Assembly: GCF_000021565.1 (NCBI RefSeq)
Contig: NC_012440.1
Span: 884,210 to 948,209 of the forward strand
Source of the DNA: Persephonella marina EX-H1
Lineage (GTDB): Bacteria; Aquificota; Aquificia; Aquificales; Hydrogenothermaceae
Reading direction: 5' to 3'
DNA: 64,000 nucleotides
Part shown: positions 39,680 through 54,553 of the stretch, one piece after another
How positions within the stretch are numbered: the first letter of the stretch is position 1
Layout: each line of letters opens with the position of its first letter
Program-made: the position numbers and the translations under genes
The notes under the pieces: generated by a model
What the model was told of the DNA's origin: nothing
Seen by the model: only the letters and a program-made list of their open reading frames with translations
Databases searched by the model: none

Positions 39680-40684
39680 ATGAGGCATCTCAATAAAGAA
39701 AATCAGGAGATCTTTCTCATACTGAAGATTCTCCTTAAAGATGGTGGACAGATAGGATTTCTGTACGGTAAGGACGGCAGATCTGCATCTCTTTTTATCA
39801 TGGATCTGTTAAACAGCCTTGATATACAGAAAAGGGTTTTGTTTGTATCCCCAAAATCTGGAGATATTTACAGACAGATACTCCAGAAGTTAGGGAGAGA
39901 TATTGATAATCTGACTGTTGAGCAGTTTCTGATTGAGTTTTACAACCAGAAAGAGAAGCTTGACAAAAGGGTATTTATTGTTATTGAGGATTCTGATTCC
40001 ATGGATCAGACTGATATTATTAATCTCATCAAGATCTTCGGTGGGGATAAGGATATATCAGTTATATTTACAGGAAGTGATAAGCTGGATAGGATCGTTG
40101 AAGAGATAAAACCAAAGAAGATCTTTTCTTACGTTAATTTTGTGTTTCAGCTAAAAGGAAAAGGCTTTCCTTTCCTAAAATTACTTATAGCCCTTTTGAT
40201 AATTTCAGGTCTTTCAGCAGGTTATTTTTACCTCAAAGATAATGGAAAAGAGATTAAAGAAGATAAGGTTAAGATAGTAAAGAAGGATAAGGAGATACTT
40301 AAGAGTCTGAAAGATAACAGGGTTGTTAAAAAAGAACCACCAGAGAGAAAAAAGGTAAGAGAGGAGATCTGTGATTTTGTATGTCTGTTTGATAAAACTG
40401 TGTATCCTGTAGTGATTAATAATCAGATACCGGATAAAAAACATAAAAAACCTGTTCTGAAAGAGAGATACAGAATTTATGCAGGTGCTTTCAGAAATTT
40501 AAAAAATGCCAGGTTTCTCTCTGACAGGATCTTTAAAAAAACAGGTCTAAAGGCTGAGATAGAAGACCTTGGAAGTATAAAAAATGTTTATATAAAAGCC
40601 TATAGAAGAGAAGAAGCTCTTGAGATAAGAGACAGATTGAACGAAATAGGAATAAAACCTTACATAAAAAGGTTAGAAAAATGA
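39680..40684 (+). CDS. ExeA-like protein with degenerate ATPase domain, membrane helix and SPOR domain
   Basis: 334 residues. The first 170 follow the ExeA/MshM AAA pattern of the next gene, but the P-loop reads YGKDGRSAS (no GK-S/T) and the Walker B region reads VIEDSDSMD instead of DEAQ, so ATP hydrolysis is unlikely. A membrane helix (about 172-190) is followed by a basic linker and a C-terminal SPOR domain (about 262-334, YRIYAGAFRNLKNARFLSD), which in known proteins binds denuded peptidoglycan. It overlaps the following ExeA-like gene by four bases (ATGA). Together they may form a peptidoglycan-remodelling pair for secretin insertion, as GspA/GspB do. Function is inferred. Confidence 0.75.
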   Translation: MRHLNKENQEIFLILKILLKDGGQIGFLYGKDGRSASLFIMDLLNSLDIQKRVLFVSPKSGDIYRQILQKLGRDIDNLTVEQFLIEFYNQKEKLDKRVFIVIEDSDSMDQTDIINLIKIFGGDKDISVIFTGSDKLDRIVEEIKPKKIFSYVNFVFQLKGKGFPFLKLLIALLIISGLSAGYFYLKDNGKEIKEDKVKIVKKDKEILKSLKDNRVVKKEPPERKKVREEICDFVCLFDKTVYPVVINNQIPDKKHKKPVLKERYRIYAGAFRNLKNARFLSDRIFKKTGLKAEIEDLGSIKNVYIKAYRREEALEIRDRLNEIGIKPYIKRLEK

Positions 40685-41856
40685 GAGACTTTGTTGAGTT
40701 TTTTGGTCTGAATGAGGATCCTTTCAGGATAACACCCGATATAGACTATTTCTATATGTCATCAGTTCATCAGGAGGCTTTAGGCTCTCTTGAGTATCTT
40801 TTAGAATCAGAGGAAGGATTTGCCGTTATTATAGGAGAACCTGGAACAGGAAAGACTATAACTATAAGAAAGTTTATACACCAGCTTGGTGATGATGTTG
40901 AGTACGCATACATACTTTTCCCCAATCTTTCCCCCGAGGAACTTCTAAAGGCTATACTTGAGGATTTTGGTATAGATGTTCCTTCAGACAGCTCTAAAAA
41001 TAAGGTTTTTTCATTGCTTAGAGACTTCCTTATCCAGAAGAAAAGTGAAGGAAAGAAGATCGTTATAATTGTTGACGAGGCTCAGAACCTTCCGGTTGAG
41101 ACACTTGAGGAGCTGAGAATTCTCTCAAACATGGAGACGGACAAGGAGAAACTTTTACAGATAATTCTCCTTGGCCAGCCTGAGCTTGAGGAGAAGCTTG
41201 AATCAAACCAGTTGAGACAGTTAAGACAGAGAATAACCATAATAACCCATCTCAGGAATCTGTCCTTTGATGAGACTGTCAAATATATTAACTACAGATT
41301 TGCCAAAGCAGGTAATCCTGCCGTTAACATCTCAGATGGGGTTTACAGACTCGTTTACAGTTATACCGAAGGTAATCTCAGAAAAGTCAACCTTCTTATG
41401 GAAAGAGCTTTAATGTCAGCATTTGTTGAAAATAATCAGTTTATAGATAACAGGCATATAAAAGCTGCAGCTGAAAGCTTAAAATTAAGAAAAAAAAGAT
41501 CATCAGTTAAAACCGCTGTTCCGGCAGTCTTTTCCGTTCTTCTCATTTTACTTTTCACAGCAGGTTACTATATCTACAGTATCTCAGATGATTCTGTCAG
41601 AAAATCTGTTAAGGAAGCAGAAAAAAAAGAGGTTGTGCAGGATAAGGTTTCAAATAGAATCAATGATAGTAAACAAATGAAGGTCAAGGCATACATGTTA
41701 AATATGAGAGAAAAACCTACAAAAGAGTCTGAAATCGTCTATCTTTTAAAGGAAGGTGATACTGTTGAGGTAGTTGGTAGAGATGGAGAATGGGTAAAAG
41801 TTAAAAAAGATGATATTATAGGGTGGGTCAAGGAAAAGTACTTATCACTGAAATGA
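40681..41856 (+). CDS. ExeA/MshM-type AAA ATPase with C-terminal SH3 domain
   Basis: 391 residues. The cytoplasmic AAA domain (1-265) begins with the family signature FFGLNEDPFRITPD and has an intact Walker A (GEPGTGKTITI), Walker B (IIVDEAQNLP) and sensor (LLGQPELEEKL). One membrane helix (about 279-300) leads to a periplasmic linker and an SH3b domain (about 330-391, LNMREKPTKESEIV, GWVKEKYL), which likely binds peptidoglycan. In type II secretion and MSHA systems, ExeA/GspA or MshM helps the secretin cross peptidoglycan. It is coupled to the preceding ATPase-dead relative and is followed by a diguanylate cyclase in the same direction. Confidence 0.88.
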   Translation: MRDFVEFFGLNEDPFRITPDIDYFYMSSVHQEALGSLEYLLESEEGFAVIIGEPGTGKTITIRKFIHQLGDDVEYAYILFPNLSPEELLKAILEDFGIDVPSDSSKNKVFSLLRDFLIQKKSEGKKIVIIVDEAQNLPVETLEELRILSNMETDKEKLLQIILLGQPELEEKLESNQLRQLRQRITIITHLRNLSFDETVKYINYRFAKAGNPAVNISDGVYRLVYSYTEGNLRKVNLLMERALMSAFVENNQFIDNRHIKAAAESLKLRKKRSSVKTAVPAVFSVLLILLFTAGYYIYSISDDSVRKSVKEAEKKEVVQDKVSNRINDSKQMKVKAYMLNMREKPTKESEIVYLLKEGDTVEVVGRDGEWVKVKKDDIIGWVKEKYLSLK

Positions 41857-41919: not shown

Positions 41920-43167
41920 ATGGATGAAAAGATCCAAAAAGTAATTTTTTCTAATACGATAAAATATCTTGAAGGTCTGTCTGGATGTAAGGGTGTTGGA
42001 TTATACTTCAAAGATAAAAATATGGTAGAGGAGATATCAAACACCATATCCCGATCTTTTAACCTCTCATCTCAGGAAATCAAGAGAAAGTTTTTCTTAA
42101 TAGGCGGTGAGTATTACGATATGTCCGTTCCTTACTATATTTTTGTAGATATGTTTGATCATATAGAAAAGGATGTTATCAGAGAGCTGACCTTTGAAGG
42201 AGATATAAATGAGGGTCTGTTAAACAGGATAAACGATTATTTCAATACTGTGAAAGATGCTGTTTCATTCGGTTACCTACAGAGGATGATAAAATCGGAT
42301 AAGGACATAATAAGAAAAGAGCTCAGAAGTGTTAAGGACAGGAACTCAGAGCTGAGACCATTTTTAAGAGACTATCTGATATGGGTGAACAAGCTGACTG
42401 AGGATATTAAAAAGCTCAGAAGCTGTGATACCCAGTCCAACGTCCAGTGGAAGAATATTGATGAAAAGGAGTATATTTCCTCACTTCTGAATAAGGATGA
42501 GATAGAGGCTATAAGAGATGTCCATAATAAACTTATAAATCTGTCTTCAAGTATCTATTACGCAATAGATAAAAGAAAGTTCACACTTTTAACCTCAAAC
42601 TATATAGAACTTATAAAGCTTGTCGGAAAGCTTATATCCCTTGCTACTGTGAATATAGCCGCAAGAAGTCTTGAAGGTATAAATATAGATCATCTTACAG
42701 GGCTGCTGAACAGAAAAGCTATGGATTTCATACTTAACAGCCAGTATCAGATAGCAAAACTAACAGGAAAACCTCTATCAATAGTTATGCTTGATCTTGA
42801 TGATTTTAAAAATATAAATGATAGATATGGCCATCTTGTAGGTGATTGCGTTCTCCAGAACTTTGCCAAAGAGCTTCAGGAACATCTAAGAAAATCAGAT
42901 TTTATTTTCAGGTATGGTGGTGAGGAGTTTTTAATACTGATGCCCTTTACAGAGAAGAGAGATGCCTGTATCGTTATCAGAAATTTACTTGAAAAGATAT
43001 CTGACAGCTATATATGCTGTGGTGAGGACCTATATATTAATGTAACGTTCAGTGCCGGAATTGAAGATATAACAAGTAAACATGAATCGGTAATTGATAT
43101 CATAAAACAGGCTGATCAGAAGATGTATAAAGCGAAAAGTTCAGGCAAAAGTAAGGTTATCTGCTGA
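41920..43167 (+). CDS. Diguanylate cyclase with uncharacterised N-terminal region
   Basis: 415 residues, soluble. The C-terminal GGDEF domain (about 255-415) has DHLTGLLNRKAMD, DLDDFKNINDRYGH and the active site FRYGGEEF; the inhibitory I-site is intact (RKSD five residues before GGEEF), so it should make c-di-GMP with feedback. The first 250 residues are helical, contain a Cys in the SGCKGVGLYF region and no domain I can name. It resembles the N-terminal half of DGCs sensing via a small helical domain. Its position at the end of the ExeA-like run and facing the pilin genes suggests it supplies c-di-GMP to the pilus machine. Confidence 0.92.
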   Translation: MDEKIQKVIFSNTIKYLEGLSGCKGVGLYFKDKNMVEEISNTISRSFNLSSQEIKRKFFLIGGEYYDMSVPYYIFVDMFDHIEKDVIRELTFEGDINEGLLNRINDYFNTVKDAVSFGYLQRMIKSDKDIIRKELRSVKDRNSELRPFLRDYLIWVNKLTEDIKKLRSCDTQSNVQWKNIDEKEYISSLLNKDEIEAIRDVHNKLINLSSSIYYAIDKRKFTLLTSNYIELIKLVGKLISLATVNIAARSLEGINIDHLTGLLNRKAMDFILNSQYQIAKLTGKPLSIVMLDLDDFKNINDRYGHLVGDCVLQNFAKELQEHLRKSDFIFRYGGEEFLILMPFTEKRDACIVIRNLLEKISDSYICCGEDLYINVTFSAGIEDITSKHESVIDIIKQADQKMYKAKSSGKSKVIC

Positions 43168-43170
43168 TTT

Positions 43171-45258
43171 TCATCTGTCGGACACACTTCCATTATTGAG
43201 GTAGTTTACTCTGCAGTCGCCATTCCCACCATTACTCTGGATATCAGCATTCATAGCGTCAGAGTAGGATATCTTGTCAATTAAATCTGAGTTGTTATAA
43301 CGACAGACACACCAGCGCCAGAAACATATAGGGTAGTATCTCTCAATAAATTGACCATTTGTTAGTTTTAAAGTGGAAGTTGTTATCTCCTCTCCATCAA
43401 ATATTAAACCTACCTGAGTTCCATTTACAGTAAAACAGTAATATCCACCTGTGCTGTTCCATACTCTGTAACCCTGACATCCAACATAAACATCTGTAGA
43501 ACATGTACCTGTAAGAACACCGTTAGTGACATTAAGAGTGAATGTGTTAACTCCTTCTGTATTTAAGTTTCCTGTAGTACATACCCCAGAGGGATCAACT
43601 ACATTTGTACAGCTGCCGGAAACAGGACTGAAATAACCTGATGTGAAATATCCGGAGATATTCCAGGTAAGATCTGTTGTACCACCATATGGAATGACAT
43701 TAGGTGTGGCAGATAGAGTACAGGATGGCGGTGTAGGAGGTACAGAGGTATTAACAGTATAAACCCCTGTTATGCTTTGTTGTGGCGTACAGGAATCCGT
43801 GTAACTGACAGAGAATGTACATGATGACGTTGTTAATGGTGTTCCGGAAATTACAGCACCTGTTGTACTGCAGCTAAAGGTAAGCCCATTACAGCTTGCA
43901 GGCGAACAGGAGGTTAGATTTATAGGAGGATTCCCCCCGGAAAGAGATATTGATTGTGTAAAGGGAACTCCGACAGTTGCTGTAAAAACCGTCCCACTTG
44001 GTGGGTTTAAGAAAAAAGGGGTACAGGAACTACCTCCTGATCCTGCAGTCGAACAGTCAGGATCTATAACAGTAAGAGCAAATGCTTTGTAAGCTGTGTA
44101 TGAACCTGAGCAGGATGATACCTGAACAGTAAATGTGTAAGGTGAAGGGTTGGAACATCCTGTATCTGAATTTATTGTTCCTGTAATTGTTCCATCAGGA
44201 TTTAATGTTAATCCCGGTGGTAATGAGCCGTCAACTAATAACCACGTATAAGTAGTTCCACCTCCAAATGCAGACAGGGTTACGCTGTAACTGCTTCCTT
44301 CATAACCTGTTGGAAGAGTCTCTGTTACAATTCTAAGCTGCTGAGGATATACATTAATACTAAAGTTCTGATTAAAAGTGTTACCTGCAGAATCTCTTAC
44401 ACAGAGATTATTAAGGTTAATTGTACTACTACATGTGGACAGAGATCCCGGGGGAGATGAAGGTTCTATATTTATAGTACCGTAAATACTTCCATCGCTT
44501 TTCATTTTTAGACCGTTGCCGAGATCTATCTCGGTTGCCGGTATATTACAGGTCGTTCCATCATAAGATCCCCACTGGTACGGAGGTCTACCACCGGAAG
44601 CCTCTAACTTGTAGTTGTAAGGAGAGTCTTCAGTACCGTTAGGTAGAAGTGATGGGGTTTTTATCGTTAGAGACTCACATCCTTCTTTAGTCTGTAGCTC
44701 ATGAAGTGTAACCCATTTTACAATATCATCATAAGGTTCAGATCTATTCAGATCGGCAGGATAGTTGTCAACTACAATGCCATACTGGAAAACCCTTATC
44801 GTTGTAGGTGTTGTTATCTCCTGAGAACCTGTGGTCTGATTGTTGTAGTTACCATCACCACTCAGGATTAAAAATGCAACGTTACTAATTGTTGTGGATG
44901 TTGCACAGGAAGGGTCATCACATATCTCAACTGTTATATTTGTTGAGTTTAATCCGCAATGTCCATAAGGAGAAGATACTGTAAGATCTCTGTCATAAAC
45001 ATAGACGAGAGGTTTGCCGTATGAGTCTTCAAGTGTCCTTACGACCGTATTCAGTTCAGAAGCTGTTGGGATTCTCCCTGAGGATGACGCATATCCTGTT
45101 ATAGCCTCAACAGCTGCGTTTACAATCTCTTTACTCTCTGCATATTTTGCTCTCTTTATAAGAATGCTGAAAGTTGTTGCTCCTATTCCGATAAGAACAC
45201 CTATAATAACGAGGATCATTGCAAGTTCAATGAGTGTGAACCCTTTTTTATTTTCCAT
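43171..45258 (-). CDS. Very long prepilin-like protein with Ig-like (He_PIG) repeats, probable pilus tip adhesin
   Basis: 695 residues. The N-terminus is a class III/type IV prepilin signal: KKGFTLIELAMILVIIG with cleavage G6-F7 and Glu at +5, followed by the usual pilin helix and a globular domain to about 200. After that come three or four Ig-like repeats of the putative-Ig (He_PIG) type, e.g. LPTGYEGSSYSVTLSAFGG, then GSLPPGLTLNPDGTITGTI (about 315-400). The last 190 residues are rich in Cys and Tyr/Asn. Type IV pilins normally have 120-200 residues, so this is an outsized minor pilin with an adhesive tail, as in MshQ-like or PilY1-like tips. It is the last gene of the minus arm. Confidence 0.85.
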   Translation of the reverse strand: MENKKGFTLIELAMILVIIGVLIGIGATTFSILIKRAKYAESKEIVNAAVEAITGYASSSGRIPTASELNTVVRTLEDSYGKPLVYVYDRDLTVSSPYGHCGLNSTNITVEICDDPSCATSTTISNVAFLILSGDGNYNNQTTGSQEITTPTTIRVFQYGIVVDNYPADLNRSEPYDDIVKWVTLHELQTKEGCESLTIKTPSLLPNGTEDSPYNYKLEASGGRPPYQWGSYDGTTCNIPATEIDLGNGLKMKSDGSIYGTINIEPSSPPGSLSTCSSTINLNNLCVRDSAGNTFNQNFSINVYPQQLRIVTETLPTGYEGSSYSVTLSAFGGGTTYTWLLVDGSLPPGLTLNPDGTITGTINSDTGCSNPSPYTFTVQVSSCSGSYTAYKAFALTVIDPDCSTAGSGGSSCTPFFLNPPSGTVFTATVGVPFTQSISLSGGNPPINLTSCSPASCNGLTFSCSTTGAVISGTPLTTSSCTFSVSYTDSCTPQQSITGVYTVNTSVPPTPPSCTLSATPNVIPYGGTTDLTWNISGYFTSGYFSPVSGSCTNVVDPSGVCTTGNLNTEGVNTFTLNVTNGVLTGTCSTDVYVGCQGYRVWNSTGGYYCFTVNGTQVGLIFDGEEITTSTLKLTNGQFIERYYPICFWRWCVCRYNNSDLIDKISYSDAMNADIQSNGGNGDCRVNYLNNGSVSDR

Positions 45259-46268
45259 TACCTTTCTCCAAGAGCCTCTAATAATTTCAACCTTTCATTA
45301 ACAATATTGATAAGAAATTCATCATCACAACTTAAATTTAATATTTTTTTATAGATTTTGTAAGCCTCATCTGTAATTCCTTTGATCTCAAGCATTCTTG
45401 CGAAGGCATATGCTATGTATGGATCAGAAGGATTTTTTGTAAATGCCCTTTCATAATAGAAAAGAGCTCTGGATATATCTCCGTTTGCCTCGTACAGATA
45501 TCCGTACGCATAACTGATATAACCTTTTTTCTCTTTTTCTGAGTATCTGTCAAGAATATCTTTTGCACGGTAGAAATCTTCATTATCAATGAGTTTAACT
45601 GCTATAGACGATACTGTTTCCTCATTTTTAAGATCAGACAGATATTTTTTCATCTCATCAAAATTTCCCGTTTCCACAGCGAGGACAAGTAAGTTATTCA
45701 GTATATCTTCTGTTTTTTTCAGACTGTAAACCTTTTTGTAGTATCTGTAAGCTTCTGTAAGATTTCCCTCTTTTATATTTTTTTCTGCAAGAGATATGTA
45801 GGCTGATATCTCAGCTGGATCCGGTTCTTTTTTTATTATGGCAATATTAACAGGTTCTTTTTCTGACTTATTTATACTAATATCCTGAAGATCTGTTTTC
45901 TTAACTTTTTGTTCTATCTCATTTAGAACAAGATCAAGAGGTGGAAGAGGTTCATTACCAGAACTCTCTTTTTTTATCTCCTTTTTAATCTCCCGGGGAG
46001 ATGTCACCTGATTTTTTACTCTTTCTGTCTGATGTTTATTTACAGGTTTTTCTCTGACAATCTTTTCTGTACTGACAAGAATATTCTGTTGAGGGATAGC
46101 AGTTAGATAGTAATAGATGCCCATGCCTGAACCGATAAGTATTAATGTAATAACAGAAAGTATAAGAACCCTTTTGTTTACACTCTTTTTCACTTCAAGT
46201 CCCGGTGGTACGGGCTTTGCCCCCTTCTTATTTTTTATTTTCCTTAACATCTGGATCATCAGACTCAT
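45258..46268 (-). CDS. Membrane-anchored TPR protein (MshN-like)
   Basis: 336 residues. A short cytoplasmic stretch, one membrane helix (about 33-55, LILSVITLILIGSGMGIYYYL) and a basic linker precede TPR-like helical hairpins (about 150-330, e.g. YISLAEKNIKEGNLTEAYRYYKKV and ALFYYERAFTKNPSDPYIAYAF, quoted in part). MshN, which has the same layout, lies in MSHA pilus operons. It should hold pilus parts in the periplasm. Its ATG overlaps the secretin stop by four bases and its stop shares a base with the prepilin ATG (TAATG), so it is in the middle of the assembly operon. Confidence 0.75.
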   Translation of the reverse strand: MSLMIQMLRKIKNKKGAKPVPPGLEVKKSVNKRVLILSVITLILIGSGMGIYYYLTAIPQQNILVSTEKIVREKPVNKHQTERVKNQVTSPREIKKEIKKESSGNEPLPPLDLVLNEIEQKVKKTDLQDISINKSEKEPVNIAIIKKEPDPAEISAYISLAEKNIKEGNLTEAYRYYKKVYSLKKTEDILNNLLVLAVETGNFDEMKKYLSDLKNEETVSSIAVKLIDNEDFYRAKDILDRYSEKEKKGYISYAYGYLYEANGDISRALFYYERAFTKNPSDPYIAYAFARMLEIKGITDEAYKIYKKILNLSCDDEFLINIVNERLKLLEALGER

Positions 46269-47839
46269 TCTTCTAACCTGCTGTCAAATTTTATTATTCT
46301 TGGTTTCAAAAATATGATCAGCTCTTTTTTCTCCCTGTACACCTTTTTATTTTTAAAGAGATTTCCAAATACCGGTATGTTGCTGAGCAGAGGGATTTTA
46401 TTTTCCTCAACCCTTTTTTCTGTATTTATCATCCCACCTATGATTATCAGATCTCCATCCTTCACCTTTATGATGGTTCCTGCTTCTTTTATATTGAGAA
46501 CTGGTGCTTCAGCAACAACCTCATTGTTTTCCACAAGCTGTTTTGTCCCTTCTATTTTTGTTGATACTGGAACGATATTTATCATAATGTGATCACCTTC
46601 AATGTAAGGTGTAACCCCAAGCAAAACACCACTCAGAACACTTCTTCTTATATACATTACGCTCTGGGTTACAGTTGTTGTTCCAAGTGTTGTTATCTGC
46701 TTTTCCCAGTATGGAACTACAACTCCTGATGAGATAAGAGCTGTCTGTCCATTTAAGACTCTTATTCTGGGATTTGAGAGAGTCTCTATCCTGCCAACTG
46801 AAGAAAGTGCATTTATAACAGCGTTAAAATCAAGGCCTGCAACTACAACCTCACCATAACTTGAGGGAAGTGCAAGGGTCTGTCTTAACGATATGGAAGC
46901 ACCTGCCACATTTCTCAGTAATGCTGACCAGTTTATACCGTACTGCATTCCATCAGAAAGGGTTACCTCTACTATTTTTGACTCAATTAGAACCTGTTTT
47001 TTAACCTCTGAGAGAATCTTTTTTAAAAATTTCTCAACTTTTCTCATCTTATATTTAGGTGCTGTTACGACAAGGGTTCCCGTAAACTTGTTCAGTGTAA
47101 AACTGCTTTTTGCAAGTGAAGCAGAGAACTTTTCACCTTCTGTATCCTCTTTCAAAATATTTTTTAGCCCATTTTCTATCTGACCGTAAAAATCGTTAAT
47201 CTCCTCTGGATTTTCGTATTTCAGGGAAAAATCACCTGAAATGCTTCTAGCGGTAGAACCTGAAGTTCCACCACCTATTGTACCACCTCCATATCCTCCT
47301 CCTATACCACCTCCACCTGTCTGCATGGCTCCGCCGAGAACATCACCTCCAAGTTTTGAACTGAAAGATGAGTTTGTGTGGACATAAGGGATGTGGAATG
47401 TTTTTGTCGTTGATCCTTTTATATAGATGATATTCCCCTTTATCTGGTAATAAACGCCTGCAAGGTCTGTTACAACCTTCAACGCATCCTCTACAGGGGT
47501 TTTGTTAAAATTCGCTGTTATAAGTATGTTTGGATTTACATCGGGGGATATTATAAGGTTCATTCCTGTGTCATTGGCAATAGCGTAAAGAACAGCCTTC
47601 AGTGGAACCTGATCAGCTGAAAATGTAAAGAACTTATCCTTAAAAGGTGATATTTTTTTTATTACAGGTTTGACGATCTTTGGTGGAGGTTTTATGACAG
47701 GTTTGTAAACAACTTCTTCCTCCTTTTTTATCTCCTTTTTAAGCTCTTTTTTATCCTCTATCTTTTTTGTTGAAGTGGATCCACAGGAGACAAAAAATGT
47801 CAGAATAAAAATAAAGATCACCTTGAAAAATCTATCCAT
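46265..47839 (-). CDS. Type IV pilus/MSHA secretin lipoprotein
   Basis: 524 residues. The signal peptide ends in a lipobox (TFFVSCGS, Cys19), so the secretin itself is a lipoprotein like MshL. N-terminal STN/N0-like domain (FTFSADQVPLKAVLYAIA) and a second small domain are followed by a Gly-rich loop (about 175-200) and the C-terminal secretin barrel (about 275-515) with VPYWEK, LLGVTPYI and GGMINTEKRVEENKIPLLSNIP (partly shown). It forms the outer-membrane pore for the pilus. It overlaps the upstream PilP-like gene by 22 bases. Confidence 0.92.
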   Translation of the reverse strand: MDRFFKVIFIFILTFFVSCGSTSTKKIEDKKELKKEIKKEEEVVYKPVIKPPPKIVKPVIKKISPFKDKFFTFSADQVPLKAVLYAIANDTGMNLIISPDVNPNILITANFNKTPVEDALKVVTDLAGVYYQIKGNIIYIKGSTTKTFHIPYVHTNSSFSSKLGGDVLGGAMQTGGGGIGGGYGGGTIGGGTSGSTARSISGDFSLKYENPEEINDFYGQIENGLKNILKEDTEGEKFSASLAKSSFTLNKFTGTLVVTAPKYKMRKVEKFLKKILSEVKKQVLIESKIVEVTLSDGMQYGINWSALLRNVAGASISLRQTLALPSSYGEVVVAGLDFNAVINALSSVGRIETLSNPRIRVLNGQTALISSGVVVPYWEKQITTLGTTTVTQSVMYIRRSVLSGVLLGVTPYIEGDHIMINIVPVSTKIEGTKQLVENNEVVAEAPVLNIKEAGTIIKVKDGDLIIIGGMINTEKRVEENKIPLLSNIPVFGNLFKNKKVYREKKELIIFLKPRIIKFDSRLEE

Positions 47840-48282
47840 CTTTCACCCCATTTTCCTTTGAGTAATATCCTGTCTTTCTCAATTTTTATAATCCTTTCAT
47901 CCTTTGAAATTCTATCATTCTCCCTAAAAAGTTTTCCGTTAATCATTACGAACTTCTTGTTAATTCCTATATAAATAAAATTAACCTTATATTCTGGAGG
48001 TGGTTCTTTTATCTTTTTATCGGAAGTTATCTCTTCTTTATAAGGATGTACATCCAGGCTGTTTTTGATAAAGGCAGTATTTATTCTCATTTTATCTTTA
48101 TAACTCAGGTTTATTTCAGGGTAATTGATCTCAAGTTTAAAATGCGGTTCTACATATCTGTTTATGAGATCTCCTACAGTTCTGTCAATATAATCTTTAA
48201 AAAAAAGCGGTAGTACAGGGATTATAATCGGAATTAATAGCAGAAGTATGTATCTGGGAGGAATACTTTTTAACATGATCAT
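47818..48282 (-). CDS. PilP/GspC-like periplasmic alignment protein (MshK position)
   Basis: About 154 residues with one N-terminal membrane helix (about 7-24, ILLLLIPIIIPVLPLF) and a C-terminal beta-barrel of the PilP/GspC HR type: NFIYIGINKKFVMINGKLF, RENDRISKDERIIKIEKDRILLKG, WIDF. Such domains dock to the secretin N0 domain. The frame begins at 48297, but ATG 48282 comes after the stop of the preceding gene and has GGTGGA six bases before it, so it is preferred. It ends 22 bases inside the secretin gene. The position matches mshK. Confidence 0.7.
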   Translation of the reverse strand: MIMLKSIPPRYILLLLIPIIIPVLPLFFKDYIDRTVGDLINRYVEPHFKLEINYPEINLSYKDKMRINTAFIKNSLDVHPYKEEITSDKKIKEPPPEYKVNFIYIGINKKFVMINGKLFRENDRISKDERIIKIEKDRILLKGKWGERWIDFSR

Positions 48283-48283
48283 C

Positions 48284-48781
48284 TTACGTTCCACCATAAT
48301 ACGGTTGTGTCAGATTTATCATCATATTGACCGTTGTTCCATTTTTATCGTTATTTAAGAAAAATTTTTCTATCTCCGCTACAGGATACATTGACTGTTC
48401 AAATAATAAAATAGTATCAATAAGCTCTTTACTACTTTTTGGTTTTAAAGACAGGGAAAGTTTTACGTATACCGATCCCTCTTTAACTTCTGGTCCTTCA
48501 ATAATTTTCACAGGATATATCCTTTTAATACTATCAAGTTTGTTGAGTATTATCTCTTCTGCTTCCTCTTTTTTAACATATTTTAAGTTTAGAATATTCT
48601 TAAGTTCAATAATCTCATTTATATTTTCCTTTATCAGTCTTACCTTATCTGACATATGTCTGAGTTCCCTTTCTTTCTCTCTGAGATATCCATCAAAACG
48701 CTGAAAGGAGAGCATAAGGATAAGGTTTATACCTATCAGAATTGAGATCGTTATGTATACTGCATAACTTTTCTCTTTCAT
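48284..48781 (-). CDS. PilO/GspM-like inner-membrane protein (MshJ position)
   Basis: 165 residues. One membrane helix (about 7-25) is followed by a coiled coil (about 30-75, REKERELRHMSDKVRLIKE) and a small ferredoxin-like domain (YVKLSLSLKPKSSKELIDTI, then MYPVAEIEKFFL). This is the PilO/GspM layout, whose members pair with PilN through coiled coils. It begins directly after the PilM-PilN fusion stop (TAAATG). MshJ occupies this place in MSHA operons. Sequence similarity to named proteins is low, so the assignment rests on layout and order. Confidence 0.72.
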   Translation of the reverse strand: MKEKSYAVYITISILIGINLILMLSFQRFDGYLREKERELRHMSDKVRLIKENINEIIELKNILNLKYVKKEEAEEIILNKLDSIKRIYPVKIIEGPEVKEGSVYVKLSLSLKPKSSKELIDTILLFEQSMYPVAEIEKFFLNNDKNGTTVNMMINLTQPYYGGT

Positions 48782-50113
48782 TTATCTCTCCTTAACAATC
48801 TCAAGAAAGATCTTTCCGGTAAGATTATCTATGTTGTAGACAGATCTATCACGAATTTTAAAATCATTTAACTTATCAAGCTCATTTTTTAATTTTCTCT
48901 TAAAATCCTCTATCTCTTTTACACTTTTGAATTTTTGATCTGATCTGATAGTTATGTACCTTTTTCCTTCTGAATATGTAATGTTAATATTTTCATCTCT
49001 TATAACGGAAAGTATCCCAGATAGTCTGTTCAGAATATAGATCGTCTTTCTCTCTGGTGAGAGAAGGTTTATATACCTGACAAGATAAACGATCTGATCA
49101 TAGGTGAGTTCTTTTGAAAGCACTTCTCTCTGGAATGTCTGTTTAAGCGAGTAGTAGGAGTTTTTCAGTCTAAAAAATCTCTCTTTAAGATCCATAAATT
49201 TATTAAGGTTCAAAAATGAAAATATAAGCAGTACAAGAACAAGAAGATAGCTCAGTTTTTTACTTGCTCCTGAGAATATCTTTTTGTGCTTAACATCAAC
49301 AGGCAAGAAATTGTAGGTATCCTTGATGTTTAAAGATCCGATCTGGATAACATAGCTGTTAAACTGCTCAAAGCTTCCCTTTTTTACAAATAACTCAGGA
49401 AGAACAGTGTAGACAGGCTTGTTGGAAAATGTGTGTATAAGCTCAACGAACTGTTCATTTTTAGATATCTCACCTACAAGGCCTATAACGTCTATATCTA
49501 TTCCCTGATTCTGGGCAACATATATATATGTCAGGTTAAAGTTTTCATAATAGAAATTTATAAGCTGTTGTTCATCATTTACAAACTCTGGGATTTTAGT
49601 TGATCTGGTATACAGGATCTTCCCATTCTGACTGACTGTAACGATAAATTTTTCCTCATCTGTATAGGTCATAAAAACGGTCTCATCACCTGATATTTTA
49701 GACGTTATACCTGAAAGAGCAAACTGGGAAAGAGTGAAGACCTCTATACTTGTCAGATCCTTTATATTTAATCTTTCTACAGCTTCAAAAAACAGTTTTT
49801 CCGGTACAGCATACACATCATACTCAACCTGATTTTCCGAGACCTCTCTGTTCTTTACAGGTAGAAAGATATAATTTACGCCGGACTCAAGTTTGTCAGA
49901 CAACTTATTTTTTATCAGAAAAGAAAGGGTATTTTCATCCCTTACAGGTGGGATCACAATCTTTGAGTGTATAAAATCCTGATAAAAAACTGAGATGTAG
50001 TACCTGCCGGTTCTGTTTATATTGTAATCAACAATCTCAACAAAGCTGTTGTATCTTTTAAGGACAGCTCCTTTAACTTTACCATCTGAGATCTCTACAG
50101 TTATTAAACTCAT
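48782..50113 (-). CDS. PilM-PilN fusion (MshI/GspL-like assembly platform protein)
   Basis: 443 residues. Residues 1-270 form a cytoplasmic actin-like domain as in PilM or cytoplasmic GspL (LITVEISDGKVKGAVLK, later VFMTYTDEEKFIVTVSQNG). At about 275 the PilN-type N-terminal motif appears (DTYNFLPVD), followed by a membrane helix (about 292-310), a coiled coil (about 312-345) and a small periplasmic domain. So functions split between PilM and PilN in many bacteria are in one chain here, like MshI and GspL. It anchors the assembly ATPase to the periplasmic proteins. It starts a six-gene minus operon, divergent from the pilin gene. Confidence 0.78.
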   Translation of the reverse strand: MSLITVEISDGKVKGAVLKRYNSFVEIVDYNINRTGRYYISVFYQDFIHSKIVIPPVRDENTLSFLIKNKLSDKLESGVNYIFLPVKNREVSENQVEYDVYAVPEKLFFEAVERLNIKDLTSIEVFTLSQFALSGITSKISGDETVFMTYTDEEKFIVTVSQNGKILYTRSTKIPEFVNDEQQLINFYYENFNLTYIYVAQNQGIDIDVIGLVGEISKNEQFVELIHTFSNKPVYTVLPELFVKKGSFEQFNSYVIQIGSLNIKDTYNFLPVDVKHKKIFSGASKKLSYLLVLVLLIFSFLNLNKFMDLKERFFRLKNSYYSLKQTFQREVLSKELTYDQIVYLVRYINLLSPERKTIYILNRLSGILSVIRDENINITYSEGKRYITIRSDQKFKSVKEIEDFKRKLKNELDKLNDFKIRDRSVYNIDNLTGKIFLEIVKER

Positions 50114-50192: not shown

Positions 50193-50236
50193 TAATGGAA
50201 ATAATATAGTTAAAGTGAAAATACAGGAGGTGGATG

Positions 50237-50821
50237 ATGAGAAATCAAAAAGGTTTCACACTTGTTGAGCTTGCGATAGTCCTTGTGATTATTGGACTGA
50301 TACTTGGAGCTGTTATGAAGGGACAGGAGCTTATCCAGAACGCAAAGTACAAAAGGTTAGTAAATGACCTTAGAGGGTTAACAGCTGCAGCTTACACCTA
50401 CTATGACAGGTACAGAGCAATGCCAGGTGATGATCCAAAAGCTGGAGACAGATGGAGTGCAACATACCCTAACATACTAAATGGAAACGGAAACGGACTT
50501 ATAGATGGTGCAGCTAATTCAACAAATAATACCGATGAGTCTGTTCAGGCATGGAGACATTTAAGAGCCTCAGGAATAATAGCCGGTGACCCTAATGAAG
50601 CGACACTCACAAGACCTTCAAACCCATACGGAGGAAGATACGGTTTCTCTAATAGAAACTTCGGTACAGGAACATACAATTTTGTTTTTGTGGATAACGT
50701 CCCTGCAGATATTGGAAGGAGATTAGATGAAGAATTTGATGATGGTATCTGGAATACAGGATCTATACAGGCCAACGCTGATTACACTACAGGGGTAAGA
50801 GACATATTCTATAGATTTTAA
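50237..50821 (+). CDS. Major type IV pilin (MshA-like prepilin)
   Basis: 194 residues. The leader MRNQKG is cut before FTLVELAIVLVIIGLILG (Phe at +1, Glu at +5); the helix is followed by a globular domain with YYDRYRAMPGDDPKAGDRW, common in MSHA-like and epsilonproteobacterial pilins. Residues LNGNGNGLIDG (about 81-91) look like a calcium-binding loop (N-x-N-x-N-G-x-I-D). There are no Cys, so no C-terminal disulfide loop. ATG 50237 is preferred over 50234 because AGGAGG is six bases before it. It has its own promoter and a strong terminator, consistent with much higher expression than the machinery genes. Confidence 0.9.
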   Translation: MRNQKGFTLVELAIVLVIIGLILGAVMKGQELIQNAKYKRLVNDLRGLTAAAYTYYDRYRAMPGDDPKAGDRWSATYPNILNGNGNGLIDGAANSTNNTDESVQAWRHLRASGIIAGDPNEATLTRPSNPYGGRYGFSNRNFGTGTYNFVFVDNVPADIGRRLDEEFDDGIWNTGSIQANADYTTGVRDIFYRF

Positions 50822-50827
50822 ATAGTA

Positions 50828-50856
50828 AGGTGGGATCAGATCCCACCTCATTTCTT
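50828..50856 (+). terminator. Terminator between the pilin and assembly-ATPase genes
   Basis: AGGTGGGA (50828-50835) pairs with TCCCACCT (50841-50848) around the loop TCAGA, followed by CATTTCTTTTTA. It lies seven bases after the pilin stop and should end most pilin mRNA, letting part of the transcription continue into the ATPase gene. Confidence 0.8.
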
Positions 50857-50899
50857 TTTAACTTTTTACGAAAAGTTCTTAAAACAACAGGTGAACTAA

Positions 50900-52576
50900 A
50901 TGTCCCGCAAACCTATAGGTCAGTTATTAAAAGAGTTTGGTTATGTCACAGAAGAACAGATACAGGTAGCCCTTGAGGTTCAGAAAATAAAGGGGGGTCT
51001 CCTTGGAGAAATCCTACAGGAACTCTCCTTTGTATCACCCAGAGAAGTTGCAGAAGCTATAGCAAGACAGTCAGGAAGACCCTATATAGACCTTTCTCAG
51101 TACCCTCCAACAAGGGAGTCTCTAAGAATCCTTGATAAAAACATAGCAAAGCAGCTTGAGGTCCTTCCATTTGAGATAGATAAAGATGAACTTCATATCG
51201 CGATGACAAACCCTTACGATATAAATGCTATAGATGTTGTTAGCAGGAGAACAAATCTTAAAGTTAAAGTTTACGTGGCAGATAAGGAAACATTACTGAA
51301 AAGTATTGAGATACATTACTTTCTTTTAGAACAACCGATAGATCAGACAGTTAAGAGTTATATAGAAAAGGCAAAAACCGGAACTCTCGGAACTGAACTA
51401 CCAAAATTTATAGATACCGTTTTAAATCACGCTATTATTGACAGGGCAACAGATATTCATATCTCACCTGAAAGTGCAGCATCCCACATATTTTTCAGAA
51501 TTGACGGTATAATGAGGCATTACTATGCCTTTCCAAAATCAACACATAACGCTGTAGTATCAAGAATTAAAGTTCTAGCAAATCTTGATATTGCGGAACA
51601 GAGACTTCCTCAGGACGGGGCATTTACACATACTTTTTTTAATGAAAGTTTTGATATGAGGGTATCAACAATACCTACAGCGTACGGTGAGAATGTTGTT
51701 ATAAGAGTTCTTTCAAAAAATCTGTCTCTTTTCAATCTAAAGAGTCTCGGATTTGAAGATGATATGCTTTCACAGCTTGAGGAGGAGTTTTTAAAACCAC
51801 AGGGGATAGTCCTTGTTACAGGTCCTACAGGTTCAGGTAAAACAACAACACTTTATGCTGCTTTAAGAAGGATAAACGCACTTGAAAGGAATATTCTCAC
51901 AGCTGAAGATCCTGTTGAGTACAGATTTCCTTTTATAAAACAGACTCAGGTTAATGAGAAGGCTGGATACACATTTGCAAGGGCTATAAGACATTTCTTA
52001 AGACAGGATCCTGATGTTATTCTTGTTGGTGAGATAAGAGATGAAGAGACTGCAGAGATGGCTATGAGAGCATCAATAACAGGACACCTTGTTTTATCAA
52101 CACTTCATACAAATGACGCTGTCAGTGCGATACCAAGGCTAATAGATATGAAGATAAAGGATTATATGGTTGCCTCAGGTGTCTCAGCCATAACCGCACA
52201 GAGACTTGTAAGAAAAACATGTCCTTTCTGTATGGAGGAGGAGATTATAGATATTGAAGATCTTAAAAGTTATGGTTTTAGTGAAGACTCTATAAAAAGA
52301 TACGGATCTGATTATATAGATGATGGAAAGGTAAAGATTTACAGAGGAAAAGGTTGTGAACACTGCAAAGGAACAGGTTATCTTGGAAGGACTGTAATAG
52401 CTGAACTTTTAAAGATTGATGAGGATATAGCAGACCTGATAGTAAAAGGCAGTACTCCTCTTGGTATCGTTCAGAAAGCAAGGGAAAAAGGAATGAGAAC
52501 ATTAAAAGAGGACGGTCTTATAAAAGTTTTCAAAGGCGTCACAACCCCTGAAGAGATAAAGAGAGTAACAGGATAA
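50900..52576 (+). CDS. Type IV pilus extension ATPase (MshE/PilB/GspE family)
   Basis: 558 residues. Residues 1-120 are a MshEN/T2SSE N-terminal domain with two 24-residue repeats, starting at PIGQLLKEFG and LLGEILQELS; the Arg that starts the MshEN c-di-GMP motif is replaced in both. The catalytic part has Walker A (GPTGSGKTTTLY), the Asp box, Walker B (DVILVGEIRDEETAEMA) and the His box (ITGHLVLSTLHTND). A tetra-Cys zinc site is present (CPFCMEE, CEHCKGTG). It powers pilin polymerisation. It starts 51 bases after the pilin terminator and is one base from the platform gene. Confidence 0.94.
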   Translation: MSRKPIGQLLKEFGYVTEEQIQVALEVQKIKGGLLGEILQELSFVSPREVAEAIARQSGRPYIDLSQYPPTRESLRILDKNIAKQLEVLPFEIDKDELHIAMTNPYDINAIDVVSRRTNLKVKVYVADKETLLKSIEIHYFLLEQPIDQTVKSYIEKAKTGTLGTELPKFIDTVLNHAIIDRATDIHISPESAASHIFFRIDGIMRHYYAFPKSTHNAVVSRIKVLANLDIAEQRLPQDGAFTHTFFNESFDMRVSTIPTAYGENVVIRVLSKNLSLFNLKSLGFEDDMLSQLEEEFLKPQGIVLVTGPTGSGKTTTLYAALRRINALERNILTAEDPVEYRFPFIKQTQVNEKAGYTFARAIRHFLRQDPDVILVGEIRDEETAEMAMRASITGHLVLSTLHTNDAVSAIPRLIDMKIKDYMVASGVSAITAQRLVRKTCPFCMEEEIIDIEDLKSYGFSEDSIKRYGSDYIDDGKVKIYRGKGCEHCKGTGYLGRTVIAELLKIDEDIADLIVKGSTPLGIVQKAREKGMRTLKEDGLIKVFKGVTTPEEIKRVTG

Positions 52577-52577
52577 G

Positions 52578-53798
52578 ATGAGATTTTATCTAATTGAGGC
52601 TATTGATCAGGAAGGGAAGAAACAGAAGAAGGTTTTAAGCGTAACAGACGAGTCTGAGATATTTCCCCTTCTTGAGTTCTCTGGTCTTATACCTTTAAAG
52701 ATTAAAAAGCTTCCAGATTACTACAGATACCTCAATATAAGAAAGTATATATACAGAATTAAAAGACAGGAAATAATTGAAGTTTTAGAGAATCTACATC
52801 TAATTGTAAAATCTGGACTTCCTATAAATACAGGACTTATGGATCTTGCAGAAGATGCAGAGAACCCATCATTAAAAGAGATGCTTTTTGATATGGCATT
52901 TAAAATACAGGCAGGTGAGACATTATCTCAGGCAGCAGAAAGCTACAGGGATATTTTCTCAGATGTTGTTATATCCCTTTTCAAGATTGGTGAGGAGACC
53001 GGAAGTCTTGATAAAACATTAAAGGATGCAGCTGAGCATCTAAAAAAGATTGAAGATCTGAAAGCAAAAACGAAACAGGCATTGATATATCCTGCATTTG
53101 CATTTTTCAGTGTTTTAGGTGCAATGATATTCTGGCTTGTTTATGTTCTCCCAAAGATAATCGATGCTTTCAAGGATTTTAATATAGAGCTTCCTGCAAC
53201 AACTGTATTCATTATGAAAACATCAGATTTTTTAAGATCTTACGGTATATTTCTTGTTGTGGTTATTTTCATATTATTTATTCTTCTTCAGATGTTAAGA
53301 AAGAAGAATGAAAAGATAAGAATTGAGACAGACCGTCTAATTTTAAAGATACCTGTCATTGGCATAATCATTGAGAACTTTAATTATGCTTTTTTTGCTG
53401 AGTATGTAAGGCTTATGATACAGGCTGGACTTCCACTTTATCAGGCATTAAATATTATGGAAAATGCTATAAGAAATTATGTTTTTAAGACAGCCATAAG
53501 AAACTCAAGAAATGAGATTGAGCTTGGAAGATCATTTTCTGATTCCTTAAAAAAGGAGAATGTGTTTTCACCTCTGATCATAAGGATGATATCTATAGGA
53601 GAGCAGACAGGAGCTTTAGATGAGCAGCTTGACTATATATCAAATTACTATTACAACAAGGTTGAGTACATATCACAGAATATAGCCAAGATGATTGAGC
53701 CTATAATAATAGGTGTGGTGGGAGGATTTATGCTCATAGTTATGCTTGGATTTATAGGTCCTATATACGATCTGATATCACAGATCGGAAGAATGTGA
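52578..53798 (+). CDS. Type IV pilus inner-membrane platform protein (MshG/PilC/GspF family)
   Basis: 406 residues with two GspF domains (about 70-190 and 270-390), each with the family pattern LHLIVKSGLPINTGL / LIQAGLPLYQALNIM and GEETGSLDKTL / GEQTGALDEQLD, and three membrane helices (about 175-200, 220-245, 375-400). It turns with the ATPase to insert pilins. It starts one base after the ATPase stop, and its own stop overlaps the patatin start (TGATG). Standard length and no missing parts. Confidence 0.94.
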   Translation: MRFYLIEAIDQEGKKQKKVLSVTDESEIFPLLEFSGLIPLKIKKLPDYYRYLNIRKYIYRIKRQEIIEVLENLHLIVKSGLPINTGLMDLAEDAENPSLKEMLFDMAFKIQAGETLSQAAESYRDIFSDVVISLFKIGEETGSLDKTLKDAAEHLKKIEDLKAKTKQALIYPAFAFFSVLGAMIFWLVYVLPKIIDAFKDFNIELPATTVFIMKTSDFLRSYGIFLVVVIFILFILLQMLRKKNEKIRIETDRLILKIPVIGIIIENFNYAFFAEYVRLMIQAGLPLYQALNIMENAIRNYVFKTAIRNSRNEIELGRSFSDSLKKENVFSPLIIRMISIGEQTGALDEQLDYISNYYYNKVEYISQNIAKMIEPIIIGVVGGFMLIVMLGFIGPIYDLISQIGRM

Positions 53799-54553
53799 TG
53801 AAAATAGGTATTGCTCTTTCAGGTGGTGCTGTAAGGGGGGCAGCACATATAGGCGTTCTTAAAGCTCTTGAGGAAAGAGGGATAAAACCTGATTTTATAT
53901 CAGGATCAAGTGCAGGTTCTATAGTTGGTGCCTTTTATGCAGCAGGTTACTCTCCTCTCGAGATGGAAAAGATAGCATTAAACACAAAATTTCTCTCTTA
54001 CTTAAAGCCTGAGCTTTCCTTTAGCGCACTTTTTTCCCTGGAGAAGCTGGAAAAATTTCTTGAAAGGTACATAGGCAAAAAAGATATATCTGAGCTTGAG
54101 AAGAAACTATTTGTTTGTGTCACAAATCTGAATAAGGGTATTCCAGAGTATAAATCAAAGGGGGATCTTTTTTTATGGATATCAGCATCTTCCTCACTTC
54201 CGTTTATATTCAAACCTGTTGAGTACGAGGGAAATCTCTATATAGACGGGGGGATTATGGATAACCTCCCTGTAGAGCCTTTAAAAATTCATTCAGACTA
54301 TATAATCGGTGTGGATGTAAACCCTCTTGGAACAGAAGAGAGGCTCAACAACGCTTTTTCCATACTTATAAGGAGTTTTTATCTTGCTTTCAGATCAAAT
54401 GTTGAACTGAGGAAAAGGGTGTGCGATCTTTTTATACAGCCTGAAGATCTTGTTGATATAGGTCTTTTTTCTGCCTGGAGAATAAAGGATGCTATAGATA
54501 TAGGCTACAGATACACAAAGAATATTTTAAACAGGAATGATCTTAAGATATAG
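53798..54553 (+). CDS. Patatin-like phospholipase
   Basis: 251 residues with the catalytic dyad of patatins: oxyanion loop SGGAVRGAAHIG, nucleophile elbow GSSAGS (Ser near 39) and DGG (Asp near 148, IDGGIMDNLPVEPL). No signal peptide, so it probably acts at the inner face of the membrane on phospholipids. The bacterial RssA/YchK group looks like this. ATG 53798 shares one base with the platform-gene stop (TGATG), so it is translated with the pilus genes, which is unusual. Its last 27 bases overlap the convergent dnaJ gene. Confidence 0.88.
   Translation: MKIGIALSGGAVRGAAHIGVLKALEERGIKPDFISGSSAGSIVGAFYAAGYSPLEMEKIALNTKFLSYLKPELSFSALFSLEKLEKFLERYIGKKDISELEKKLFVCVTNLNKGIPEYKSKGDLFLWISASSSLPFIFKPVEYEGNLYIDGGIMDNLPVEPLKIHSDYIIGVDVNPLGTEERLNNAFSILIRSFYLAFRSNVELRKRVCDLFIQPEDLVDIGLFSAWRIKDAIDIGYRYTKNILNRNDLKI

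Follow-up and report, generated by a model that had tools for sequence, protein, structure and literature searches.

Modular type IV pilins, in which an N-terminal prepilin module is joined to an extra module that is not specific to pili, were described in 2021, and PF05345 was among the 15 commonest added modules (Raynaud et al. 2021, PMC8179133). The modular pilins PilB and PilC of Streptococcus sanguinis are adhesins (PMC8179133; PMC9934059); PilB carries one vWA domain and is encoded at a monoderm type IV pilus locus (PMC8179133), and PilC was described in 2023 as an adhesin with the order pilin, immunoglobulin (Ig)-like module and ligand-binding lectin (PMC9934059). Here, a gene for a 695-residue modular prepilin was analysed which is located in a mannose-sensitive haemagglutinin (MSHA)-type pilus locus of the thermophilic bacterium Persephonella marina EX-H1 (contig NC_012440.1, positions 884,210 to 948,209; this whole stretch of 64,000 nucleotides is the window, and positions are counted from its first letter unless given otherwise). 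With a probability of roughly 0.7, the protein is a modular minor pilin of an MSHA-type pilus whose arm is an adhesin presented at or near the tip.

Among the type IVb pili, the long, multi-domain minor pilin TcpB is regarded as a tip protein that presents a binding partner. The same has been proposed for CofB (PMC8179133), and the protein described here resembles both in length and domain number, with no sequence match to the solved CofB/TcpB structures at E ≤ 1. PilY1 proteins (PF05567) are also large, extracellular, thought to be located at the pilus tip and equipped with interchangeable modules, but they are not pilins; the modular pilin has no PF05567 match, and its membership in the PilY1 family was rejected. 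MSH loci lack a prepilin peptidase gene, and the 2019 survey recorded them in Gamma- and Epsilonproteobacteria and Chrysiogenetes, not in Aquificae (Denise et al. 2019, PMC6668835).

An earlier interpretation of this DNA, made from its letters and open reading frames (the sequence-only reading), had proposed an adhesive arm grafted on a pilin. This core idea is well supported, while the novelty it implied is reduced: the modular pilin concept and its PF05345 version were published in 2021 and the pilin-Ig-lectin adhesin in 2023. New are the constant place of the gene in an MSHA-like locus of Aquificota, an undescribed C-terminal domain family and the swapping of ends. Moreover, the locus extends MSHA-like pili to Aquificota, for which the 2019 survey had not recorded them; a literature search of partial coverage for MSHA pili together with Aquificota found no paper by those terms.

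Gene, signal peptide and domain architecture

The open reading frame at 43171-45258 on the minus strand begins with ATG and contains 0 internal stops. The start codon is considered secure because it overlaps with the stop codon of the preceding TPR gene (TAATG) and is immediately preceded by a GGAG-type ribosome binding site; the gene is translationally coupled to this mshN-like TPR gene. A second, overlapping reading of the same interval was rejected since the plus-strand translation is full of stops. At the N-terminus, a basic leader ending in Gly (MENKKG) is followed by FTLIELAMILVIIG, with an aromatic/hydrophobic residue at +1, Glu at +5 and a hydrophobic helix. Pfam N_methyl matches residues 3-25 at 22.3 bits (curated cut-off 21.2), and in an alignment of 24 homologs E11 is invariant and G6 nearly invariant, which agrees with the perfect prepilin signal that had been read from the sequence. 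One prepilin peptidase gene (PF01478) is present in the genome, at G000:C2:1847959, approximately 0.9 Mb off in linear coordinates.

The AlphaFold2 model, which was built with 24 family members, comprises a pilin fold at residues 9-192 (helix 9-60, strands 83-184) and three Ig-like domains at residues 204-304, 313-395 and 415-505 with pLDDT (predicted local distance difference test) values of mostly 85-97. He_PIG (PF05345) scores 56 bits against a cut-off of 24, the best stretch being residues 313-397, and the predicted fold is an Ig-like beta-sandwich. A second model, of residues 504-695, was used for the remaining part; here the end domain at residues 593-695 is folded (pLDDT mostly 90-97, one 10-residue block at 74), and the preceding region (~509-592), poorly resolved with pLDDT ~47-76, is probably a fourth Ig-like domain. 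In a Foldseek search with the AlphaFold2 model, tandem cadherin and Ig ectodomains dominated the matches (E ~1e-10 to 1e-12); the global TM-scores were low, as expected for flexible multi-domain chains, and the fold of the domains is supported rather than their arrangement. The chain of Ig repeats proposed from the sequence is thus borne out by family search, model and fold comparison. By its pilin module and its module not specific to type IV pili (PF05345, Ig-like folds), the protein is a modular pilin as defined by Raynaud et al. 2021.

For the end domain, which spans about 100 residues, a compact and beta-rich fold is predicted. Foldseek with the 504-695 model returned matches only across the Ig part or at low TM-score (best Big_2-CBM56, E 7e-4, TM 0.26), and family profile searches gave no match of the modular pilin to a catalytic family. 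Of the Cys- and aromatic-rich C-terminal domain postulated earlier, the aromatic character (15 of 103 residues) was confirmed and is more distinctive than the Cys content: the 26 cysteines are spread along the whole protein, with 6 each in the C-terminal 103 residues and the third Ig-like domain. Unlike PilB with its one vWA domain, the protein carries a four-part arm, consisting of three to four Ig-like domains and the undescribed end domain, and belongs to a diderm MSHA-type locus. The order of pilin, Ig-like and end modules is that of PilC, which differs by its single Ig-like module and by its lectin end; the end domain found here belongs to no recognised lectin type, whereas relatives with lectin-type ends exist.

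MSHA-like locus and other filaments of the genome

The modular pilin gene is the last of a minus-strand operon of mshI-, mshJ-, mshK-, mshL- and mshN-like genes (50113 to 45258). Divergent from it, genes for a 195-residue prepilin, an MshE-like ATPase and an MshG-like platform protein are located on the plus strand (50234-53798), and on the other side of the modular pilin gene an MshM-like ATPase and a GspA/SPOR protein are encoded (39680-41856). The mshI/J/K/L/N order, the MshM-, MshE- and MshG-like proteins and the lack of a prepilin peptidase gene within the locus are shared with the Vibrio cholerae msh locus and the MSH model (Denise et al. 2019, PMC6668835). Unlike in that system, the secretin stays just under the cut-off of NCBIfam TIGR02519 (MshL), with 227.6 bits against 250.2 (the other two secretins of the genome score 135 and 111), and no MshQ-type protein or further minor pilin was found at the locus. 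The ATPase at 50900-52576 is a T2SSE protein in which both MshEN and the cyclic di-GMP (c-di-GMP)-binding motif score above their cut-offs, the mshG-like gene encodes a GspF/PilC-type platform protein, and the MshM-like protein is an ExeA/MshM-type ATPase (TIGR03015, 256 bits). The mshE, mshG and mshM members of the mandatory set of Denise et al. 2019 are therefore present as class-level homologs, as judged by general family profiles rather than by the published MSH profiles. For the 195-residue prepilin adjoining the mshE-like gene, family searches gave no MshA-specific match. It is the only other prepilin detected at the locus, and two pilin types may suffice for this pilus; two prepilins are present at the equivalent place in several relatives (L014, L021, L063, L070).

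The same genome contains a type IV pilus operon with four pilin-like genes beside a 1255-residue PilY1 (PF05567, G000:C2:1105k) at G000:C2:1101-1108 kb and a type II secretion locus at 764-780 kb. The grafted pilin was assigned to the MSHA-like pilus because its gene closes the MSHA-type operon and because the type IV pilus of this genome, which has its own PilY1, and the type II secretion system are separate. Two ways of equipping a pilus with a large extracellular part, the stand-alone PilY1 with its own minor-pilin operon and the grafted arm, thus coexist in one genome, each with its own pilus. Together with the lectin, laminin-G and kelch modules of relatives described below, this upholds the proposal that the adhesive arm is fused to a minor pilin instead of being a separate PilY1- or MshQ-type protein.

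Distribution and variability of the family

Relatives of the gene occur in Nitrospirota and in Aquificota, the phylum to which the window is assigned by these relatives. The pilin-module profile matched in 52 of 136 genomes of Aquificota, although a few of the weakest matches may be ordinary pilins, and in a comparison of 25 Aquificota loci the modular pilin gene was located directly 3′ of an mshN-like gene, as the last gene of the secretin operon, in 23. At 5 Nitrospirota loci it is located near MSH-type genes in another gene order. Relatives conserve the pilin base of ~195 residues and carry 0-5 Ig-like repeats in the stalk, followed by a member of the same small domain family as in this protein, an L-type lectin-like module, laminin-G or nothing beyond the last Ig-like domain; lectin and laminin-G dominate among the recognised ends. 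Kelch repeats or other long extensions are present in two neighbouring genes that match the pilin module in part. Tandem arrays of modular pilin or pilin-like genes occur in Nitrospirota (L027:4141-9917, L029:7974-12693, L024:1479-4358), one product having 1245 residues with kelch repeats (L029:8956-12693).

A fusion caused by a frameshift or an assembly error was rejected since independent genomes, dozens of them in two phyla, contain the same kind of fused protein. A phage or plasmid origin was rejected as well: the end domain has no plasmid match and no PHROG, and viral contigs gave only weak, short matches to the N-terminal pilin part.

In close pairs of relatives the base is kept and the end is exchanged. 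The base shows 80-88% identity in the pairs L042/L064, L011/L009 and L092/L101, and identity in the last third falls to ~6-34% (L042/L064 from 80-88% to 6-34%, L011/L009 from ~80% to ~24%). When the end classes were mapped on a tree of the pilin module, at least 24 changes were needed, compared to a minimum of 6 and an average of 29.9 for shuffled labels; this count is soft because the labels were set partly by eye and the quickly built tree has several weak forks, which does not apply to the identity drop. Close thermophile relatives of this kind form a comparative set for the ligand choice of pili and for limits of stalk length.

Of 46 complete family members, 45 have an even number of cysteines, whereas the other operon proteins have mostly few or none and follow no clear parity rule; this agrees with extracellular disulfide bonds in the modular pilin, with the reservation that members share ancestry and the cases are non-independent. 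Within their final 60 residues, 16 of 46 relatives (e.g. L028, L016, L013), many of them related sequences, have a DxDxDG-like motif, compared to a mean of 0.7 in shuffles. The protein of P. marina lacks the exact motif, its loop being interrupted by an insertion, and profile matches to EF-hand proteins were weak and non-significant (E 0.4 or worse). The loop of the relatives is possibly calcium-binding and may serve as a lead.

Proposed role and alternative explanations

In the favoured interpretation, the single prepilin peptidase encoded elsewhere in the genome would remove the 6-residue leader, and the pilin module (residues 7 to ~195) would enter the filament early via its alpha-1 helix, in an initiating complex at or near the tip. 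The three to four stacked Ig-like domains, probably disulfide-braced, would serve as a spacer, and the end domain would bind the target, which may be a surface, a mineral or a glycan. By analogy to PilB and PilC, the base would be part of the filament and the arm would be presented outside; a direct role of the grafted arm in the filament is suggested by these precedents and by the swapping of end modules. Ligand binding is ascribed to the arm because its end is variable, with lectin-like alternatives. The protein is probably a pilus-displayed adhesin and the tip its likeliest place, the position at the very tip being inferred. By analogy to V. cholerae, whose MshE binds c-di-GMP (PMC4624765), the MshE-like ATPase may plausibly place the pilus under c-di-GMP control.

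Several observations weigh against this interpretation. Glu5 (E11) is invariant in the family, whereas GspK, the pilin assigned to the very end of type II pseudopili, is without it, and the modular pilin may therefore have a sub-terminal or shaft position. The Foldseek search with the 504-695 model gave no domain-level match of the end domain to any known binding domain, and some relatives stop after an Ig-like domain. Furthermore, mshE homologs also lean to even Cys counts (16 of 21), and the argument from parity is weakened by kinship.

An insertion of the modular pilin at intervals in the shaft, with the Ig arm projecting sideways, was considered unlikely. Glu5 is kept in 24 of 24 aligned homologs, as in shaft pilins, and Raynaud et al. 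2021 leave room for modular pilins in the filament body (PMC8179133); however, an arm as bulky as three to four Ig-like domains and an end domain would fit the tip more easily, the S. sanguinis modular pilins were modelled in a tip-located complex (PMC9934059), and, as the locus has only one other detectable prepilin, the long one is a natural candidate for initiation. It is somewhat less probable still that the protein serves mainly to prime assembly or as a mechanosensor, with a variable arm that touches the secretin or envelope or blocks full retraction, and with adhesion as a secondary function. The c-di-GMP-binding motif of the neighbouring mshE-like ATPase and the binding of this nucleotide by V. 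cholerae MshE would suit such a function, whereas the arm length and end domain vary freely among close relatives, unlike a part fitted to a conserved secretin, and some relatives have lectin-like end modules. A pseudopilin-linked secreted enzyme or degradative module instead of an adhesin is very improbable: although peptidase modules were reported on some modular pilins (PMC8179133) and the relative L113 weakly matches a 3-keto-disaccharide hydrolase family (E 0.044, below the cut-off), the lack of a catalytic family match, the compact, beta-rich end domain and the predominance of lectin and laminin-G among recognised ends argue against it.

More tentatively, the MSHA-like pili of Aquificota and Nitrospirota may display a dedicated modular pilin in place of a stand-alone MshQ/PilY1-type component and of most minor pilins. 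Such a pilin would have a constant base, an Ig stalk of variable length and a rapidly exchanged end, the commonest end being a new domain family with, in many relatives, the DxDxDG-like loop.

Feature coordinates and neighbouring genes

Table 1. Features of the modular pilin gene and the surrounding MSHA-like locus
Feature	Position	Strand	Basis
Modular prepilin gene, 695 aa	43171..45258	-	open reading frame, Pfam, AlphaFold2
Leader peptide MENKKG (residues 1-6), predicted class III signal peptide; mature start F7; Glu5 = E11	45241..45258	-	sequence, N_methyl, homolog alignment
Pilin module, residues 7-195, conserved base	44674..45240	-	alignment, profile, AlphaFold2
Ig-like domain 1, ~residues 196-304	44347..44673	-	repeat analysis of relatives, AlphaFold2
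Ig-like domain 2 (He_PIG, PF05345), ~residues 305-402	44053..44346	-	Pfam, AlphaFold2
Ig-like domain 3, ~residues 412-505	43744..44025	-	AlphaFold2
Probable Ig-like domain 4, ~residues 506-592, low confidence	43483..43743	-	model pLDDT ~47-76; similar segments in L061, L066
C-terminal end domain, residues 593-695	43174..43482	-	family comparison, model
mshN-like TPR protein	45258..46268	-	family searches, synteny
mshL-like secretin (TIGR02519 best family, below cut-off)	46265..47839	-	family searches
mshK-like (weak T2SSB)	47818..48297	-	family search, synteny
mshJ-like / pilO-like by position	48284..48781	-	synteny only
mshI-like / pilM-like by position	48782..50113	-	synteny only
195-aa prepilin, candidate major pilin	50234..50821	+	Pfam, synteny
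mshE-like extension ATPase, MshEN domain and c-di-GMP-binding motif	50900..52576	+	family searches
mshG-like inner-membrane platform protein	52578..53798	+	family search
mshM-like AAA ATPase, C-terminal SH3 domain	40681..41856	+	family searches, synteny

A gene for a GGDEF diguanylate cyclase with an intact GGEEF motif (41920-43167, plus strand) is located tail to tail with the modular pilin gene; a synteny comparison of the relatives' loci showed that this adjacency is not kept. The MshM-like ATPase with its SH3 domain adjoins a GspA-like ATPase with SPOR (39680-40684, plus strand), both having probable wall-binding ends. Additionally, a patatin-like phospholipase gene (53795-54553, plus strand) overlaps the end of the mshG-like gene by 4 bases and occupies the same place in 4 relatives (L057, L059, L060, L062).
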